IMG/VR virus record: IMGVR_UViG_3300044641_001763
Span: 1-57,078 of that record
Strand: one strand, 5' to 3'
Length of the DNA: 57,078 nt
From: a virus
Shown here: positions 2,547 to 7,563 of the stretch, piece by piece
Layout: each line of letters opens with the position of its first letter
Position numbering within the stretch: the first letter of the stretch is position 1
Notes under the pieces: generated by a model
Databases searched by the model: none
Told to the model about the DNA's origin: nothing
The model's input: the letters and a program-made list of their open reading frames with translations, nothing else
Position numbers and translations under genes: made by a program

Positions 2547-4060
2547 TGCTTACATTTTTGGATCAATTGGATGACGAGCAAGTTGCCAATGCCGAGATGG
2601 TTGCTCGAGCCGCTAGACGTGCAGGAGTAGATCCGAACTTGGCGGTGGCGATTGCCTTCAAGGAAAGTAGCCTGCGGGCCAATCCGCCTCGAGGCTCTTC
2701 CGGAGAGATTGGCATCATGCAGGTGATGCCGGGTACCGGGCGAGGGATCGGGTTCAACGAGAAGCAACTCGGCAACGTTGAGAACAACATCGAGGCGGGC
2801 ATCAAATACCTTAAACAAGCGCTGCAAGCCACGGGAAACGACCCGAAGCTGGCCGCGGTGTATTACAACGGCGGTCCTGGGGCGCTGCAAGCGTTGACGA
2901 GCGGGAAAGATCCGGACAAGCGGGTAATTGAGTACGTCCGGTCGATCAACTCGTTTGGAACGTTCGGAGCGCCTGTTAAAAAACCTGAACAAGCGACTGC
3001 AGAGCCTGTTGTTGCTGTTCCGCCTGCAGCTCCACCTGCGTCACAAGTTGAGGCAGCAGAGCCTCCAGAAACCGACGAAGAGCGAAACGCTCGGATCCAG
3101 CAGGCGATGGATGACCAACAGCGACGTATGGGTCAGATATACGGCGGCGGTATTGGCGCGGGAATCTCCGCAGGGCGTATGGTTGGGCAAGCAGGCAGCA
3201 ACGTCATTCAAGGGGCTGCACAGGCCGCTGGACGCGGTTTGCAGGCTGGAATGGGTCAACCCCCCGCAGGAGCGCCTCCTGCGCCTTCTGGCGGTCTTCC
3301 TCAGCCCCCTGCCGGGGTTCCTAGTGCCCCCGTCCCGACGCAACTTGGAGTGCCGGGGACATATGCTGCCGCTACGGGTCCGGGAAGTGCGACGTTCAAC
3401 TATGCTCGAGCAGTTGGGTTGCCAGAGATCGAGGCCGGGAAGGCGTTGGGTTACGGCAAAGGAACCGGAGAAACCTGGGATCTTATGCAGAAGCGTCAGC
3501 AGGGTTTGACGAACATTCAGCAGCGGTTTCCAAATGAGAGGTACGTTGAGAACCCGCGATTCGGTGGGATCATGACGCCAGATCAAGGGGCGGGTGGTGG
3601 CCCGAGGGCGCAGTTTGTGCAGCCAGAACAAACGGCGTTAAGGCCGACGCCTCGAGGAGGCGCAGCTCCGGGCGCTATGGTTCCGTTGCCTCCGACGCAA
3701 CCTATCCCTACGACCCCTCCGGCACCTACCGGATTGCAGGCGGTCACCGCCGAGCTTAGAGCGCTGGCAAGACCGGTGGTCGGAGCTTTGGGGACGGTAG
3801 CCCGGTACGCAGGACCGCCTGCTGGGTTAGCGCTCGCGGGGGGCGAGGCGGCTGACGTGTATAACGAGATGAAGAAAGAAGACCCCGATTACATCAAAGC
3901 GCTACTGTCTGGAATTACCGGCGCGTCCGGGGTGGCTGCGATGTTCCCGCCAGCGACGTTGCCTGCTGCGTTGATCGGTGGAACGGCGGGGATGGCCAAT
4001 TACTTGAGGGGACGGCAGAGTCAAGAAATTCCGCCCTCAATCGAATATACTGCTCCGTAG
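2543..4060 (+). CDS. Virion-associated lytic transglycosylase (SLT domain) with proline-rich and hydrophobic C-terminus
   Basis: 505 residues. The N-terminal 120 residues show a soluble-lytic-transglycosylase fold signature: catalytic Glu41 in KESSLR, GIMQVMP at 57-63 and YNGG at 108-111. Such domains cut the glycan strand locally so that DNA can cross the peptidoglycan at infection. The middle part is Pro/Ala/Gly rich. A hydrophobic Ala/Gly/Leu-rich region near residues 400-480 may insert into a membrane. The start overlaps the previous stop (ATGATG). It is the last gene of this rightward unit and is followed by a terminator. Catalytic assignment is firm; the ejection role is inferred. Confidence 0.88.
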   Translation: MMLTFLDQLDDEQVANAEMVARAARRAGVDPNLAVAIAFKESSLRANPPRGSSGEIGIMQVMPGTGRGIGFNEKQLGNVENNIEAGIKYLKQALQATGNDPKLAAVYYNGGPGALQALTSGKDPDKRVIEYVRSINSFGTFGAPVKKPEQATAEPVVAVPPAAPPASQVEAAEPPETDEERNARIQQAMDDQQRRMGQIYGGGIGAGISAGRMVGQAGSNVIQGAAQAAGRGLQAGMGQPPAGAPPAPSGGLPQPPAGVPSAPVPTQLGVPGTYAAATGPGSATFNYARAVGLPEIEAGKALGYGKGTGETWDLMQKRQQGLTNIQQRFPNERYVENPRFGGIMTPDQGAGGGPRAQFVQPEQTALRPTPRGGAAPGAMVPLPPTQPIPTTPPAPTGLQAVTAELRALARPVVGALGTVARYAGPPAGLALAGGEAADVYNEMKKEDPDYIKALLSGITGASGVAAMFPPATLPAALIGGTAGMANYLRGRQSQEIPPSIEYTAP

Positions 4061-4069
4061 TCTCCTCTT

Positions 4070-4093
4070 AGCCCCACAACTGGGGCTTTTTTT
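4070..4093 (+). terminator. Rho-independent terminator
   Basis: AGCCCC-ACAACT-GGGGCT hairpin at 4070-4087, followed by seven T residues. It lies 10 nt after the stop of the transglycosylase gene and ends the rightward virion operon. The T-run overlaps the stop codon of the convergent minus-strand gene. The reverse orientation lacks a T-run, so it should act on plus-strand transcripts only. Confidence 0.92.
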
Positions 4094-4307
4094 ATGGCTT
4101 GTGCTTCTCAAGTTGACGGGAAAGTTCCGGGCTGAATTCCGCAATGATGCTGACGCAGCGGCGGTGCTCTGCCTGAGCGGCTCGGATTCGGACAATTGCA
4201 GCGATGTTTTGCGCGAACTGAACGATGTCAACCTCATCTGCAATCAAAGCATTTTTGCGGGGCCGGTCGCTTTGAAAAAACACCTGCTTGATGGTTGACT
4301 CGTCCAT
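4092..4307 (-). CDS. Small hypothetical protein, last gene of the leftward early operon
   Basis: 71 residues from ATG at 4307-4305 (MDESTIKQVF...), which overlaps the TAA stop of the upstream nuclease gene by one base (TAATG). A longer in-frame extension inside the nuclease gene is less likely. The protein is charged and helical with no recognised motif. The downstream gene end runs into the convergent terminator. The tight coupling to the nuclease and SSB-like genes suggests a DNA-metabolism accessory role, but nothing in the sequence proves it. Confidence 0.65.
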   Translation of the reverse strand: MDESTIKQVFFQSDRPRKNALIADEVDIVQFAQNIAAIVRIRAAQAEHRRCVSIIAEFSPELSRQLEKHKP

Positions 4308-5065
4308 TATTGATGTCCGTTTTTGAGTTGCCAGAAGTTCAAAAGAGCGCAGAACATCTTCCAGCCGCGGGCAAGATCGTCTTGCGACCACTCAACCAGC
4401 TTGCTTAAACCCGGCACAGAACGAGAGACGAACACGTTCGCGCACCGGGCTTCGGGCATACCAAGTCCGACGCGATACGCGGCAAGCTGCATCAGGTGTT
4501 CGTCGTATGCATCTATTTTGTCCGCGTCGGTGAACTCTTTGGTCTTGATGTCCACGACTACGTTTTGCGGGGAGTGGAGATCGACCTTCCCGCCGAAACC
4601 GAGTTCATGGGCGAAGGGGCGTTCAGCAATCCACCCGTGGAATCCAAAGGCATCAGTAATCGTGCGAGTACAGCCTTCGACGTGTTCCCGATGCTTCTTA
4701 ACGGTTGCTCCTTCGTAGAAGCCTTGGATAGATGCGTGGATGTCTGTTCCGGCGTCTGCAGCCGCCCTCCCCTGCTCTTTTGAGTCTGCCAGGATACGAG
4801 CAATAAACACGTCTTCTGGCTCATCGTGCATCCGGGGGAGGGTGAGTGCTGCGAGAAGAACTTGACGTTGCATCCACTGGGTCAAACCGGGTTTGGCTGC
4901 GATGCCAAGAATAGTTGTGACGCTCGGGACAAGGTTGAGCTTGCGAGCGTCACGGAGGGTTGTAGGCCGCTGGCCTCCCTTGGCGGCTTCCACGGTGTAC
5001 ATGGGTTCGCCGCCACGGGTGTACCAATGGGTGGACTCTGCTGCGCGGGGGTCTTTAGAAATCAT
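4307..5065 (-). CDS. PD-(D/E)XK-superfamily exonuclease (RecB/Cas4-like fold)
   Basis: 252 residues. The nuclease core is readable in order: GTDIHASIQGF (about 106-116), FGGKVDL with Asp162, VDIKTKEF with Asp172 and Lys174, then the QLAAY motif at 193-197. These match the metal-binding D, (D/E)-x-K and Q-x3-Y elements of the family. The adjacent upstream gene encodes an SSB-like protein, as in phage recombination or DNA-processing modules, so a 5'-3' exonuclease role in recombination or replication-fork processing is likely. No separate annealing protein was recognised nearby. The ATG directly abuts the upstream stop. Confidence 0.85.
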   Translation of the reverse strand: MISKDPRAAESTHWYTRGGEPMYTVEAAKGGQRPTTLRDARKLNLVPSVTTILGIAAKPGLTQWMQRQVLLAALTLPRMHDEPEDVFIARILADSKEQGRAAADAGTDIHASIQGFYEGATVKKHREHVEGCTRTITDAFGFHGWIAERPFAHELGFGGKVDLHSPQNVVVDIKTKEFTDADKIDAYDEHLMQLAAYRVGLGMPEARCANVFVSRSVPGLSKLVEWSQDDLARGWKMFCALLNFWQLKNGHQ

Positions 5066-5706
5066 CAGAATGGGATGTCGTCGTCAACACTATCGTTGTT
5101 TGTCAGCGGCGTTTCATTGGCAAGTTCGTTTCGATTCTGCCATTCAGGCGCGGACTGAATTTTTTCCTTCAACGACCGGCTGAACGTCTCGAACAGGGCC
5201 ATGTCGGGTTCATCCAGGCTAAAGATTGCCAAAGTGTTGAACCCTTGAGGGAGACCGGTTTTTTTGATTGCAGCGGGGACGGGGTTCACCGACATGATGT
5301 TCGTGTATTCCTTACCGTTGTTGCCGATGGCCTTAGCTATAGACAGCATGGCCCAGTGTCCGAGGATGTTCTTCAGCAGGAAGCCTTTAAGCTCTTCTTT
5401 AGTGAAGTCACGACCGCGCCACCCGGCGAGGTCTTTGCGGAGTGAGGCTTTTTCACCCAGCATGTTGGTGTAGTTCTTTGAGATGGACAGGGGTTCGCCC
5501 TTAGACGTGATCAAGGTCTTTCCGTTGTCGTCTTCGCCGTGGACCTCGAACTGGATCATCAGCTTGTGCAGGTACTTGATCTCACCCTGGTACTCGCTTT
5601 TCTGGGTACCTAGATCAACGATGCGGTAGCACCGCGCAAGGTGCATTCCGGGGGGTACGGGTGTGAAGCTGCTTTCGTTTCCGCTATCGCGTGCAATCAG
5701 AGGCAT
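5065..5706 (-). CDS. Phage single-stranded DNA-binding-like protein
   Basis: 213 residues. The C-terminus is the acidic tail DSVDDDIPF, the signature used by bacterial SSB proteins to dock partner enzymes, preceded by a disordered Asn/Glu-rich stretch. The N-terminal 150 residues have a beta-rich pattern compatible with an OB fold but are not classical SSB. It lies upstream of the PD-(D/E)XK nuclease on the same strand with a 1-nt overlap. The function, coating ssDNA and recruiting the nuclease or host replication proteins, is inferred from the tail and context. Confidence 0.78.
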   Translation of the reverse strand: MPLIARDSGNESSFTPVPPGMHLARCYRIVDLGTQKSEYQGEIKYLHKLMIQFEVHGEDDNGKTLITSKGEPLSISKNYTNMLGEKASLRKDLAGWRGRDFTKEELKGFLLKNILGHWAMLSIAKAIGNNGKEYTNIMSVNPVPAAIKKTGLPQGFNTLAIFSLDEPDMALFETFSRSLKEKIQSAPEWQNRNELANETPLTNNDSVDDDIPF

Positions 5707-5938: not shown

Positions 5939-6139
5939 ATGACTTTGAGAGATTTTTTTAACGGTCAGCCGCGGGGTGCTGCGTCGAAGCTAGCGGTGCG
6001 GGTAGGCGTGACCCCTACTTGGATGGCGCTGATCACAAACGGGCTGCGGAAGCCGAGCCTGCGTCTGGCTGTTGAGATTGAGAAGGCGACTGACGGTGCG
6101 GTGACGCGTCAGGAGCTGCGTCCGGACGTGTTCGCATGA
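5939..6139 (+). CDS. Cro-like / YdaS-type helix-turn-helix regulator
   Basis: 66 residues, mostly a single helix-turn-helix domain: GAASKLAVRVGVTPTWMALI then TNGLRKPSLRLAVEIEKAT, typical of phage Cro/YdaS-type DNA-binding proteins that recognise short palindromes. The start is set by a consensus AGGAGG 5 bases upstream. It is the first rightward early gene, facing the minus-strand operon across a shared promoter region, the classical place for Cro. No partner CI repressor gene was seen. It overlaps the next gene by 4 nt. Confidence 0.85.
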   Translation: MTLRDFFNGQPRGAASKLAVRVGVTPTWMALITNGLRKPSLRLAVEIEKATDGAVTRQELRPDVFA

Positions 6140-6456
6140 ACTGGTACAAGTTCCCGCTCGAGCAGTACAGGGAGATTTCTAAGTACTTGCCTGACGCTGA
6201 AGACTTAGCGTTCCGGCGGATGATCGATCTGTACTACATGGGCAAGGGGCCGTTGCCGCTCGACAGAGATTGGTTGATGGCGGAGATCCGGCTTGACTGG
6301 GACTGTATCGAGCCGGTTTTGTATGGGTACTTCACCCAGACGCCGGAGGGGTGGATGAACGACTACCTACAGGCGGATGTTGTTGCTCGACTGAAGCGAA
6401 GCGAGACGAATTCTAAGAGTGGCAAACAGGGCGGTCGCCCGAAGAAAGGAGCATGA
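6136..6456 (+). CDS. DUF1376/YdaU-type replication protein, N-terminal domain only
   Basis: 106 residues: MNWYKFPLEQYREISKYLP..., with the YdaU/DUF1376 pattern of Y-x-F, L-x2-AFRRMIDLYY, then PLP and a DGW-like turn. The family normally continues through a variable linker into a C-terminal helical domain of the O-protein kind. Here the frame stops after a basic Lys/Arg/Gly tail (GGRPKKGA). A separate ORF at 7285-7563 supplies what looks like the missing C-terminal domain. Likely role: origin recognition in a host-dependent, lambda-like replication scheme. Confidence 0.85.
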   Translation: MNWYKFPLEQYREISKYLPDAEDLAFRRMIDLYYMGKGPLPLDRDWLMAEIRLDWDCIEPVLYGYFTQTPEGWMNDYLQADVVARLKRSETNSKSGKQGGRPKKGA

Positions 6457-6457
6457 G

Positions 6458-6781
6458 ATGAAGTGGCTTGCAGCTATCACGATAGCAGTTTCTTTCAACG
6501 TCCAAGCCGAGTTTTACTCGGGCAATGACTTGCTAAACAAGTTGAACTCAGAGAGCACGTTAGACCGTGCCTTGGCTTTGGGATACATCGCCGGAGTGTC
6601 TGACTACGGTACCAACGTGGTCAATTGCCTTCCGAAGTCCGTGACTCTCGGGCAGTTGAAAGACCTTGTACAGGCGCACTTGGTAAGCAACCCGTCCTCG
6701 AGGCACTTCTCTGCAGACAGCATCATCACAAACCTGCTGCAACGGACGTGGCCTTGTGCGCCACGCGGTAGAACGTCTTGA
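6458..6781 (+). CDS. Secreted Rap1a/Tai-family-like protein
   Basis: 107 residues from ATG at 6458, 1 nt after the previous stop. Residues 1-17 (MKWLAAITIAVSFNVQA) are a Sec signal peptide with an Ala-x-Ala-like end. The mature part has the order expected from the Rap1a/Tai immunity family: SGNDLL, GYIAGVSD, Cys57 followed by VTLGQLKDLV, a YL/HL-x-NP-x-SRH segment, and a final Trp-Pro-Cys100. The usual cysteine after SGNDLL is replaced (LNKLNS). In bacteria the family neutralises periplasmic amidase effectors. A phage role in guarding or modulating peptidoglycan hydrolysis is inference. Confidence 0.7.
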   Translation: MKWLAAITIAVSFNVQAEFYSGNDLLNKLNSESTLDRALALGYIAGVSDYGTNVVNCLPKSVTLGQLKDLVQAHLVSNPSSRHFSADSIITNLLQRTWPCAPRGRTS

Positions 6782-6819
6782 CAGGCTTTTAGCGAGCTTG
6801 TATCGTTCTCTTCGTTGGT

Positions 6820-6924
6820 GTGAGAGCCGACTGAGAGCCGTCTAGCAAGATCCCGACCCCGTAAGGGGTAGCCCAAGCCGCAAACTTGGGTCTCTCACCG
6901 GGGTCTTCCTAGACGGTTTTTTTT
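6820..6924 (+). ncRNA. Branched structured RNA ending in an intrinsic terminator
   Basis: The outer stem pairs 6838-6845 (CCGTCTAG) with 6909-6916 (CTAGACGG), eight perfect pairs, and is followed by eight T residues. Past a C-C mismatch, 6847-6855 pairs with 6899-6907 over nine pairs including one G-T. Two hairpins sit inside: ACCCC-GTAA-GGGGT (6856-6869, GNRA-like loop) and CCCAAG/CTTGGG (6872-6890). CTCTCAC (6892-6898) is unpaired but complements GTGAGAG at 6820-6826, allowing a 7-bp pseudoknot. TGAGAGCCG is repeated at 6821 and 6832. At minimum it is a terminator for the gene ending at 6781. The branched fold suggests a further RNA function. Confidence 0.6.
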
Positions 6925-6936
6925 CGTCCTTACGCC

Positions 6937-7200
6937 AGCCGTTCCGCTCACGCAGCAGTGCTCCTGCATGGGAGCCAGCGGAAAACACCGGCTAGTCATC
7001 ACCCTGACTGCACGCCGTCTAGCCTGTCTGCGAGGGACTAGGGAAGACGCCTGGGACAGCGGTGGTAGACCACCCAGGAATCGAAACAATCGCAGCCTCC
7101 GGGAACTCTGGCTACAGCATAGGACGCTGCAAGCGGGAGAGGTAGAGCTAAAGTGTTTGGCTCCACCCTGGGGGAACTATGCCCGAAGCATCTTCAGACT
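6937..7200 (+). other. Non-coding, strongly self-complementary region between the two replication ORFs
   Basis: No convincing gene. Successive helices can be drawn: AGCCG+TTCCGCT (6937-6948) with AGCGGAA+CGGCT (6977-6993), enclosing GCTCC/GGAGC (6960-6975); CCTG/CAGG around GGTGG-TAGA-CCACC (7050-7078); GCATAG (7117-7122) with CTATGC (7177-7182), enclosing CGCT-GCA-AGCG (7125-7135) and GGT-A-GAGC/GCTC-C-ACC (7141-7167). A third copy of CCGTCTAG lies at 7015-7022. This may be a structured RNA or, since it lies between O-like protein halves as lambda ori lies inside gene O, a replication origin. An AT-rich stretch follows at 7207-7260. Confidence 0.5.
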
Positions 7201-7222
7201 ATCTGTGAAGAAATTCTGATAG

Positions 7223-7268
7223 AAAAATTTCACAACCAAAGCCTGTACGTTTAAGATAAAGTTACAGC
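7223..7268 (+). promoter_or_regulatory. Putative sigma-70 promoter for the replication genes
   Basis: TTTCAC (7228-7233), 18 bases, TAAGAT (7252-7257), then AAAG and TTACAG (7262-7267). It precedes AACAGGAGAACAC, the ribosome site of the gene at 7285. The TAAnnT, four bases, TTACAG arrangement matches 5914-5929 and 9826-9841. Confidence 0.5.
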
Positions 7269-7284
7269 GTCAACAGGAGAACAC

Positions 7285-7563
7285 ATGAAACCTACAGATG
7301 TTTCAGACGAGTGCTGGTCAGACTTTCTGCGGCACCGCAAGGAGAAACGAGCCATTGTCACGCCGCGGGTGATTCGCATGATCCGAGACGAGGCTGCGCA
7401 GGCCGGGTGGTCACTTGAGCAGGCGCTCGATCACATGATGTTAATGGGCTGGCGCGGCTTCAAAGCCGATTGGGTTGAGCGCAAGGCGCAGAAGCAGGAT
7501 CTGTGGAACCACTTGGTCAACAATGTTGTGGAAATGCCATGCAAAGCTATTGTGAACGATTGA
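7285..7563 (+). CDS. C-terminal domain of a YdaU/O-type replication protein as a separate ORF
   Basis: 92 residues. The order W-x2-F-x3-RK-x2-RAIVT..., then EAAQAGWSLEQALDHMM and GWRGFKADWV is the C-terminal helical domain usually found after a DUF1376 or O-like N-terminal domain, the part thought to contact the helicase loader. Here it has its own promoter, ribosome site (CAGGAG) and ATG. The probable N-terminal partner ends 828 nt upstream. It overlaps the P-like gene by 25 nt. Either the initiator works as two subunits or the gene was split by insertion. Confidence 0.75.
   Translation: MKPTDVSDECWSDFLRHRKEKRAIVTPRVIRMIRDEAAQAGWSLEQALDHMMLMGWRGFKADWVERKAQKQDLWNHLVNNVVEMPCKAIVND

Follow-up and report, generated by a model that had tools for sequence, protein, structure and literature searches.

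A conserved pseudoknotted RNA closed by a terminator: a candidate small-RNA gene and leader of a two-RNA unit in bacterial viruses

A short structured RNA that lies between a promoter and a terminator and heads a transcription unit is found in the late leader of lambdoid phages (6S RNA, from pR' to tR') and in HK022 put. RF02932 (Betaproteobacteria-1 RNA) is an Rfam RNA for which we know of no function, and no paper referring to it by name was found in the open PMC texts. The Hfq-associated small RNA RydC, known from Salmonella and Escherichia coli, has a 5'-terminal pseudoknot (PMC8383071), and GOLLD and ROOL are structured RNAs of phages and prophages that are of unknown function and often lie near tRNAs (PMC12286853). 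The locus analyzed here belongs to a 57,078-base IMG/VR virus record with terminase and portal genes, the whole of which is called the window. It contains a structured RNA ending in a terminator (RNA1) and, behind it, a second one (RNA2) (Table 1). Its sequence indicates that RNA1 is a discrete RNA gene, beyond an odd terminator.

Across the whole window, RNA1 and RNA2 included, no Rfam 15 family reached its gathering threshold, and the best of five weak matches within 6400 to 7320 had an E value of 0.3, far below its gathering score. BLAST with the window and three relatives against 50,697 phage genomes retrieved one related record, the uncultured GenBank entry MW202484.1, in which the stretch holding RNA1 and RNA2 (L168, approximately 3924 to 4300) is annotated as a hypothetical protein. 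Model R2, the one applied to Pseudomonas phage PA11, found no RNA1 there, and none was found in the order to which G016 and the MAG of L113 belong (399 genomes), a result of little weight because the filters were stricter and a positive control was lacking. Within Rfam and the open PMC texts, RNA1 appears to be an undescribed and fairly widespread phage RNA family, carried by a family of freshwater bacterial viruses. Two other assignments were tried and rejected. Pistol and HDV-like ribozymes, whose strand order differs from that of RNA1, also gave no Rfam match, and a CsrA sponge with GGA in the loop is at odds with several loops that have no GGA.

Table 1. Positions of the elements of RNA1, RNA2, and the neighboring promoter-like sites in the window
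Feature	Positions	Strand	Evidence or remarks
Sigma-70-like promoter, TTGACA-17-TATCGT	6778..6806	+	10/12 consensus matches; predicted +1 at 6814 or an adjacent base
RNA1, small RNA, ~111 nt	6814..6924	+	Fold strength, alignments, covariance model
P1 hairpin, GUUGG (6814-6818) with CCGAC (6827-6831), 8-base loop	6814..6831	+	100% paired, two-sided change in 2/5 pairs (15-sequence set)
Knot strand a (GUGAGAG), inside the P1 loop	6820..6826	+	Alignments and independent pattern set
Terminator stem P2, 5' arm	6838..6855	+	98.4% paired, two-sided change in 8/17 pairs (15-sequence set)
P3 hairpin, ACCCC-GUAA-GGGGU	6856..6869	+	100% paired; invariant, thus without covariation evidence
P4 hairpin, GCCCAAG/CUUGGGU	6871..6891	+	Two-sided change in 7/7 pairs (15-sequence set)
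Knot strand a' (CUCUCAC), just inside the terminator stem	6892..6898	+	15/15 paired, two-sided change in 4/7 pairs
Terminator stem P2, 3' arm	6899..6916	+	Pairs with 6838-6855
Terminator T-run, 8 T	6917..6924	+	Relatives have T4 to T9
Segment 4 (CUUACGCCAGC), able to form 11 bp with 6814-6824 as an alternative pairing in the read-through RNA	6929..6939	+	MFE, covariation
RNA2 type I, conserved structured RNA following RNA1, overlapping segment 4 at its 5' end	6930..7180 (ends approximate)	+	26 distinct homologues
Promoter-like site of the downstream replication gene, TTCACA-17-TAAGAT, distinct from the RNA1 promoter	7229..7257	+	9/12 matches, consensus only

The predicted fold of RNA1 combines a terminator with a knotted 5' end. 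P2 consists of 8 bp, one C.C mismatch, and 9 bp, and encloses P3, P4, and strand a'. These 17 bp with one mismatch run into T8 (at least T4 in the parsed relatives), which is the form of an intrinsic (rho-independent) terminator. The P1 loop comprises eight bases (UGUGAGAG), seven of which pair with strand a'. The result is an H-type pseudoknot, with the 5' arm of P2 and the inner hairpins lying in its long loop. The minimum free energy of 6800 to 6940 is −73.3 kcal/mol, against −42.0 ± 3.9 kcal/mol for shuffles (z = −8.0). With the RNA1 covariance model the window scores 118.9 bits, being itself one of the sequences of that model. U.G pairs conserved in P1 and P2 point to an RNA of the + strand. 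An initial annotation made from the letters had described a stem of 18 steps ending in eight T, two hairpins within it, one with a GTAA loop (P3, the other being P4), and the complementarity of GTGAGAG to CTCTCAC; all of these are present in the sequence. It had started the element at 6820, which locates the element correctly but misses its boundary, as RNA1 begins six bases earlier with P1.

Homologues were collected in several ways. Of 80 related contigs found through a protein search, two (L075 and L080) have RNA1 and RNA2 at the same place; three patterns built on the conserved RNA behind RNA1 led to about 70 contigs; and, with narrow patterns, well over a hundred IMG/VR contigs with RNA1 were retrieved. 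The first 32 distinct copies fall into 15 with two inner hairpins, as in the window (A2), and 17 with one (A3). The initial annotation had named stem-breaking substitutions without compensation as counterevidence, and the RNA withstood that test: 98.9% of the cells are paired in A2 and 97.1% in A3. The knot is paired in 100% of the cells in both sets, is perfect in all 32 copies, and shows two-sided changes in 4 of its 7 pairs in A2 and in 2 of 7 in A3. None of 500 shuffles reached the observed percentage paired, the number of cells with two-sided change, or the covariation score; for two weaker counts in the 17-sequence set, the observed value was reached by 1 and by 35 of 500 shuffles. The branched, pseudoknotted RNA closed by a terminator that had been suspected is thus kept by compensatory change in relatives.

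Because related sequences can beat shuffles without any structure, the knot was tested more independently with a pattern, GACTCCGACCCCNNNNGGGGT, that contains neither knot strand and was scanned over IMG/VR. The knot is present in all 56 distinct two-hairpin copies with enough upstream sequence, 40 of them outside the model (a count that leaves out L106, a contig-edge artefact). In each of the 56, at least six bases directly before CGGGGTC have their reverse complement in the P1 region, and in 55 at least seven do. These copies use 14 different 7-mers as knot strand, and when strands are paired across loci with different a' strands the match is mostly 3 to 4 or 6, rarely at least 7. P1 has likewise been rebuilt in many ways, as judged by eye (GUUGG/CCGAC, CUAGG/CCUAG, CUGC/GCAG, and UCGAUG/CAUCGA). 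The sole imperfect knot among 40 copies, with one mismatch, is that of L109 (5126 to 5222, − strand), apparently a recombinant of two RNA1 types. Two further observations concern more distant structures. In L113 (a Burkholderiales MAG) and L148, an RNA2 type I core is preceded by a divergent RNA1-like fold that has a 12-base a/a' complement and stays below a significant score with the models. Behind a truncated DUF1376 gene, L072 (− strand, approximately 5000 to 5200) has another terminator RNA, possibly a distant analogue, with two inner hairpins and, between them, CCGCCAA as the pairing partner of a hairpin loop.

This covariation bears on another explanation of the locus, namely, that the Rap1a gene simply ends in a common intrinsic terminator and that the extra complementarity arose by chance. 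The stem and T-run are indeed normal and lie just after that gene. Against this, P1, the knot, P2, and P4 covary, which already refutes the reading, a promoter-like site stands between the Rap1a gene and the element, and relatives have other genes upstream; we regard it as scarcely credible.

The position of the promoter-like site at 6778 to 6806 places the expected +1 on or beside the first base of P1. In the 36 distinct RNA1 copies compared, a −10-like hexamer ends 6 to 7 bases before P1 without exception (9 bases once, in L075), and the best such hexamers score on average 2.2 standard deviations above shuffles; the −35 boxes of the same copies are often weak or poor. RNA1 thus has a predicted promoter of its own, from consensus and fixed distance, and a terminator, with no open reading frame between them, as expected of an independently transcribed small RNA. 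The initial annotation had suggested a stable RNA processed from the 3' end of an early transcript. A 3' processed fragment of early mRNA was rejected because of the promoter-like site at P1, and an origin in an early transcript is not supported, RNA1 being found in both early and late gene regions.

Both models were run on 28 records, and every record with a match has RNA1 at one place only, the weaker opposite-strand matches overlapping that same place. Where marker genes are recognized, the context is early in 30 cases (NinB, thyX, O-like C half, or P-like), late in 29 (terminase or portal), and other in 12; 97 of 168 contexts have no recognized marker. The genes upstream also differ among relatives, the Rap1a gene being that of the window. 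Such varied early and late contexts favor RNAs acting in trans over control of one neighboring gene. The window has no tRNA. Its O-like replication initiator seems to be split into a DUF1376 N half (6136 to 6456) and a C half with its own ribosome-binding site (7285 to 7563), which flank the Rap1a gene, RNA1, and RNA2. In other contigs (L039, L041-L044, L047-L049, and L054), two DUF1376 genes are separated either by non-coding sequence that is conserved (GGCTACCCTTAGCGGGGGAAAAG or a shorter form) or by some different intergenic sequence.

Two further readings were considered. In the first, RNA1 would act in cis on RNA polymerase, like HK022 put or the lambdoid late leaders, which are read through by an antiterminator protein. 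A promoter and a short terminated RNA heading a unit, in early and in late regions, would suit this. The searched records, however, carry one copy rather than one per operon, the downstream O-like gene has a promoter-like site of its own, and the two-hairpin layout of put is not seen; this reading is improbable. In the second, the unit would be part of a replication origin, for instance as a primer or an origin-activating RNA, as its location between the initiator halves of the window and its single copy per searched record might suggest. About half of the marker-gene contexts adjoin terminase or portal genes instead, and we consider an origin function very improbable.

RNA2 type I, the second structured RNA of the window, has 92.2% of its cells paired in the 26 distinct homologues, with two-sided change in 18 of 35 pairs. 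Coding of 6968 to 7219 was rejected because the frame is interrupted in L075/L080 by a two-base gap and a stop. The distinct sequences downstream of RNA1 form a large single-linkage cluster of 101, including the type of the window, and smaller clusters and singletons that BLAST does not connect. At the place of RNA2, L165, L174, L181, L269, L225, L255, L305, and L307 have apparently structured RNAs that are mutually dissimilar. RF02932, as matched by its covariance model, lies directly behind RNA1 in at least three loci (L172, L177, and L188); it matches neither RNA1 nor the RNA2 of the window, so that the latter is not classed as a member. In the order of the MAG of L113, 4 of 399 genomes have RF02932 above the cut-off, and upstream of bacterial RF02932 no RNA1 was found by the models or, in six loci, by eye. 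Elsewhere, RNA1 and RNA2 are separated by a conserved open reading frame of about 90 codons (MEGEYRSRKKAVQQLHDATDPKFAVFMRSPSGHSAKF...; L107, L119, L121, and L141) or by a tRNA (L122), in both cases without a recognized promoter. For RNA2 itself, a simple consensus scan recognized no promoter in the window, the next promoter-like site being the one at 7229 to 7257.

The 5' end of RNA1 has a second partner beyond the terminator. The nested minimum-free-energy fold of the window joins it to the bases just past the T-run (segment 4), and at least six pairs between the 5' segment and segment 4 are predicted for 39 of the 40 sequences folded as read-through RNA. Duplexes formed within a locus exceed cross-locus ones in strength, none of 2,000 permutations being as low (n = 134), and have a mean z of −1.63 against shuffled targets, compared with +0.11 for other RNA1 13-mers; in several copies the pairing is weak. 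Segment 4 was first suggested by the data themselves and then checked on copies that were for the most part new, with statistics that ignore the kinship of the sequences. By estimate, the two folds lie on average 4 kcal/mol apart in energy, a rough figure that includes no knot entropy term or pseudoknot penalty. The pairing is found with several downstream RNAs that are unrelated, so segment 4 is assigned to RNA1. An exclusive, covarying partner beyond the T-run means that terminated and read-through RNA should fold differently.

These two partners can be interpreted as a cis-acting regulated terminator, similar to an attenuator or riboswitch, in which a factor or ligand would block the knot, reduce termination, and switch on RNA2 and what follows, with the short RNA as a by-product. 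A regulated terminator, also suggested in the initial annotation, is compatible with the sequence data because RNA2, or in some phages an open reading frame or tRNA, lies behind the terminator without a recognized promoter of its own; the two exclusive covarying partners of the 5' segment fit as well. Neither the knot nor the segment 4 pairing touches the arms of P2, however, so that among these two pairings there is no classical antiterminator, and segment 4 is transcribed only once the terminator has been passed. The downstream content also varies widely, RNA2 or another structured RNA being the usual neighbor, and loop sequences that vary freely give no sign of a conserved ligand site. A purely cis-acting switch is, on balance, unlikely.

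The reading that we prefer, and hold to be probable on the sequence evidence, makes RNA1 both a small-RNA gene of the phage and the leader of a unit of two RNAs, with a 5' end locked by the knot, termination aided by the knot, RNA2 made by read-through, and probable action in trans. Most transcripts would end at the T-run and yield a stable RNA of ~110 nt whose 5' end is locked in P1 and the knot. The knot would hold the emerging 3' side beside the 5' arm of P2, which would let this stem close in time despite its large branched loop. Read-through transcripts would refold, the 5' segment pairing with segment 4 at the expense of P1 and the knot, and would carry RNA2; the 5' segment would thereby tell the terminated from the read-through product. 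The RNAs would probably act in trans, because the unit precedes unrelated genes and is present in one copy per genome in the searched records. The best reading of the pseudoknot is that it protects the 5' end of RNA1 and probably helps termination. We infer the dependence of RNA2 on read-through from the consensus scan that recognized no promoter for it; alternatively, RNA2 could derive from transcripts entering from upstream.

A more specific version, which is possible but tentative, is a pseudoknot-gated terminator, in which the 5' segment would choose between the termination-driving knot, giving the stable ~110-nt RNA, and the partner behind the terminator, marking read-through. If true, the gate would control how much of each of two trans-acting RNAs is made relative to the other, the second belonging to one of several structured classes, RF02932 among them. 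The RNA1 family offers an unusually clear three-way covariation, and its physical linkage to RF02932 in some phages, together with the two-state fold, suggests a way for a knot to assist or gate intrinsic termination and makes the roles of RNA1 and RF02932 directly testable.

Compared with known systems, RNA1 resembles RydC in being a small RNA whose 5' end forms a pseudoknot, a likeness of form, homology aside, and its 3' T-run would be compatible with RydC-like binding of Hfq. The knot region of RydC, however, holds the seed for its mRNA targets, whereas in RNA1 the knot strand varies freely among phages (14 7-mers) and its partner lies inside the terminator stem. GOLLD and ROOL differ in size, with many hundreds of nucleotides against ~110 here, and neither the window nor any of the scanned relatives matched their covariance models. 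RF02932 takes the place of RNA2 in the unit, not that of RNA1. Lambdoid 6S RNA and HK022 put share with RNA1 a promoter, a short structured RNA, and a terminator at the head of a unit. A put-type arrangement, with a site in each of two early operons, was not found in the records searched, each of which has one RNA1 copy. Unlike 6S RNA and put, RNA1 is not fixed to one operon, occurs once per searched record, and has a conserved pseudoknot.
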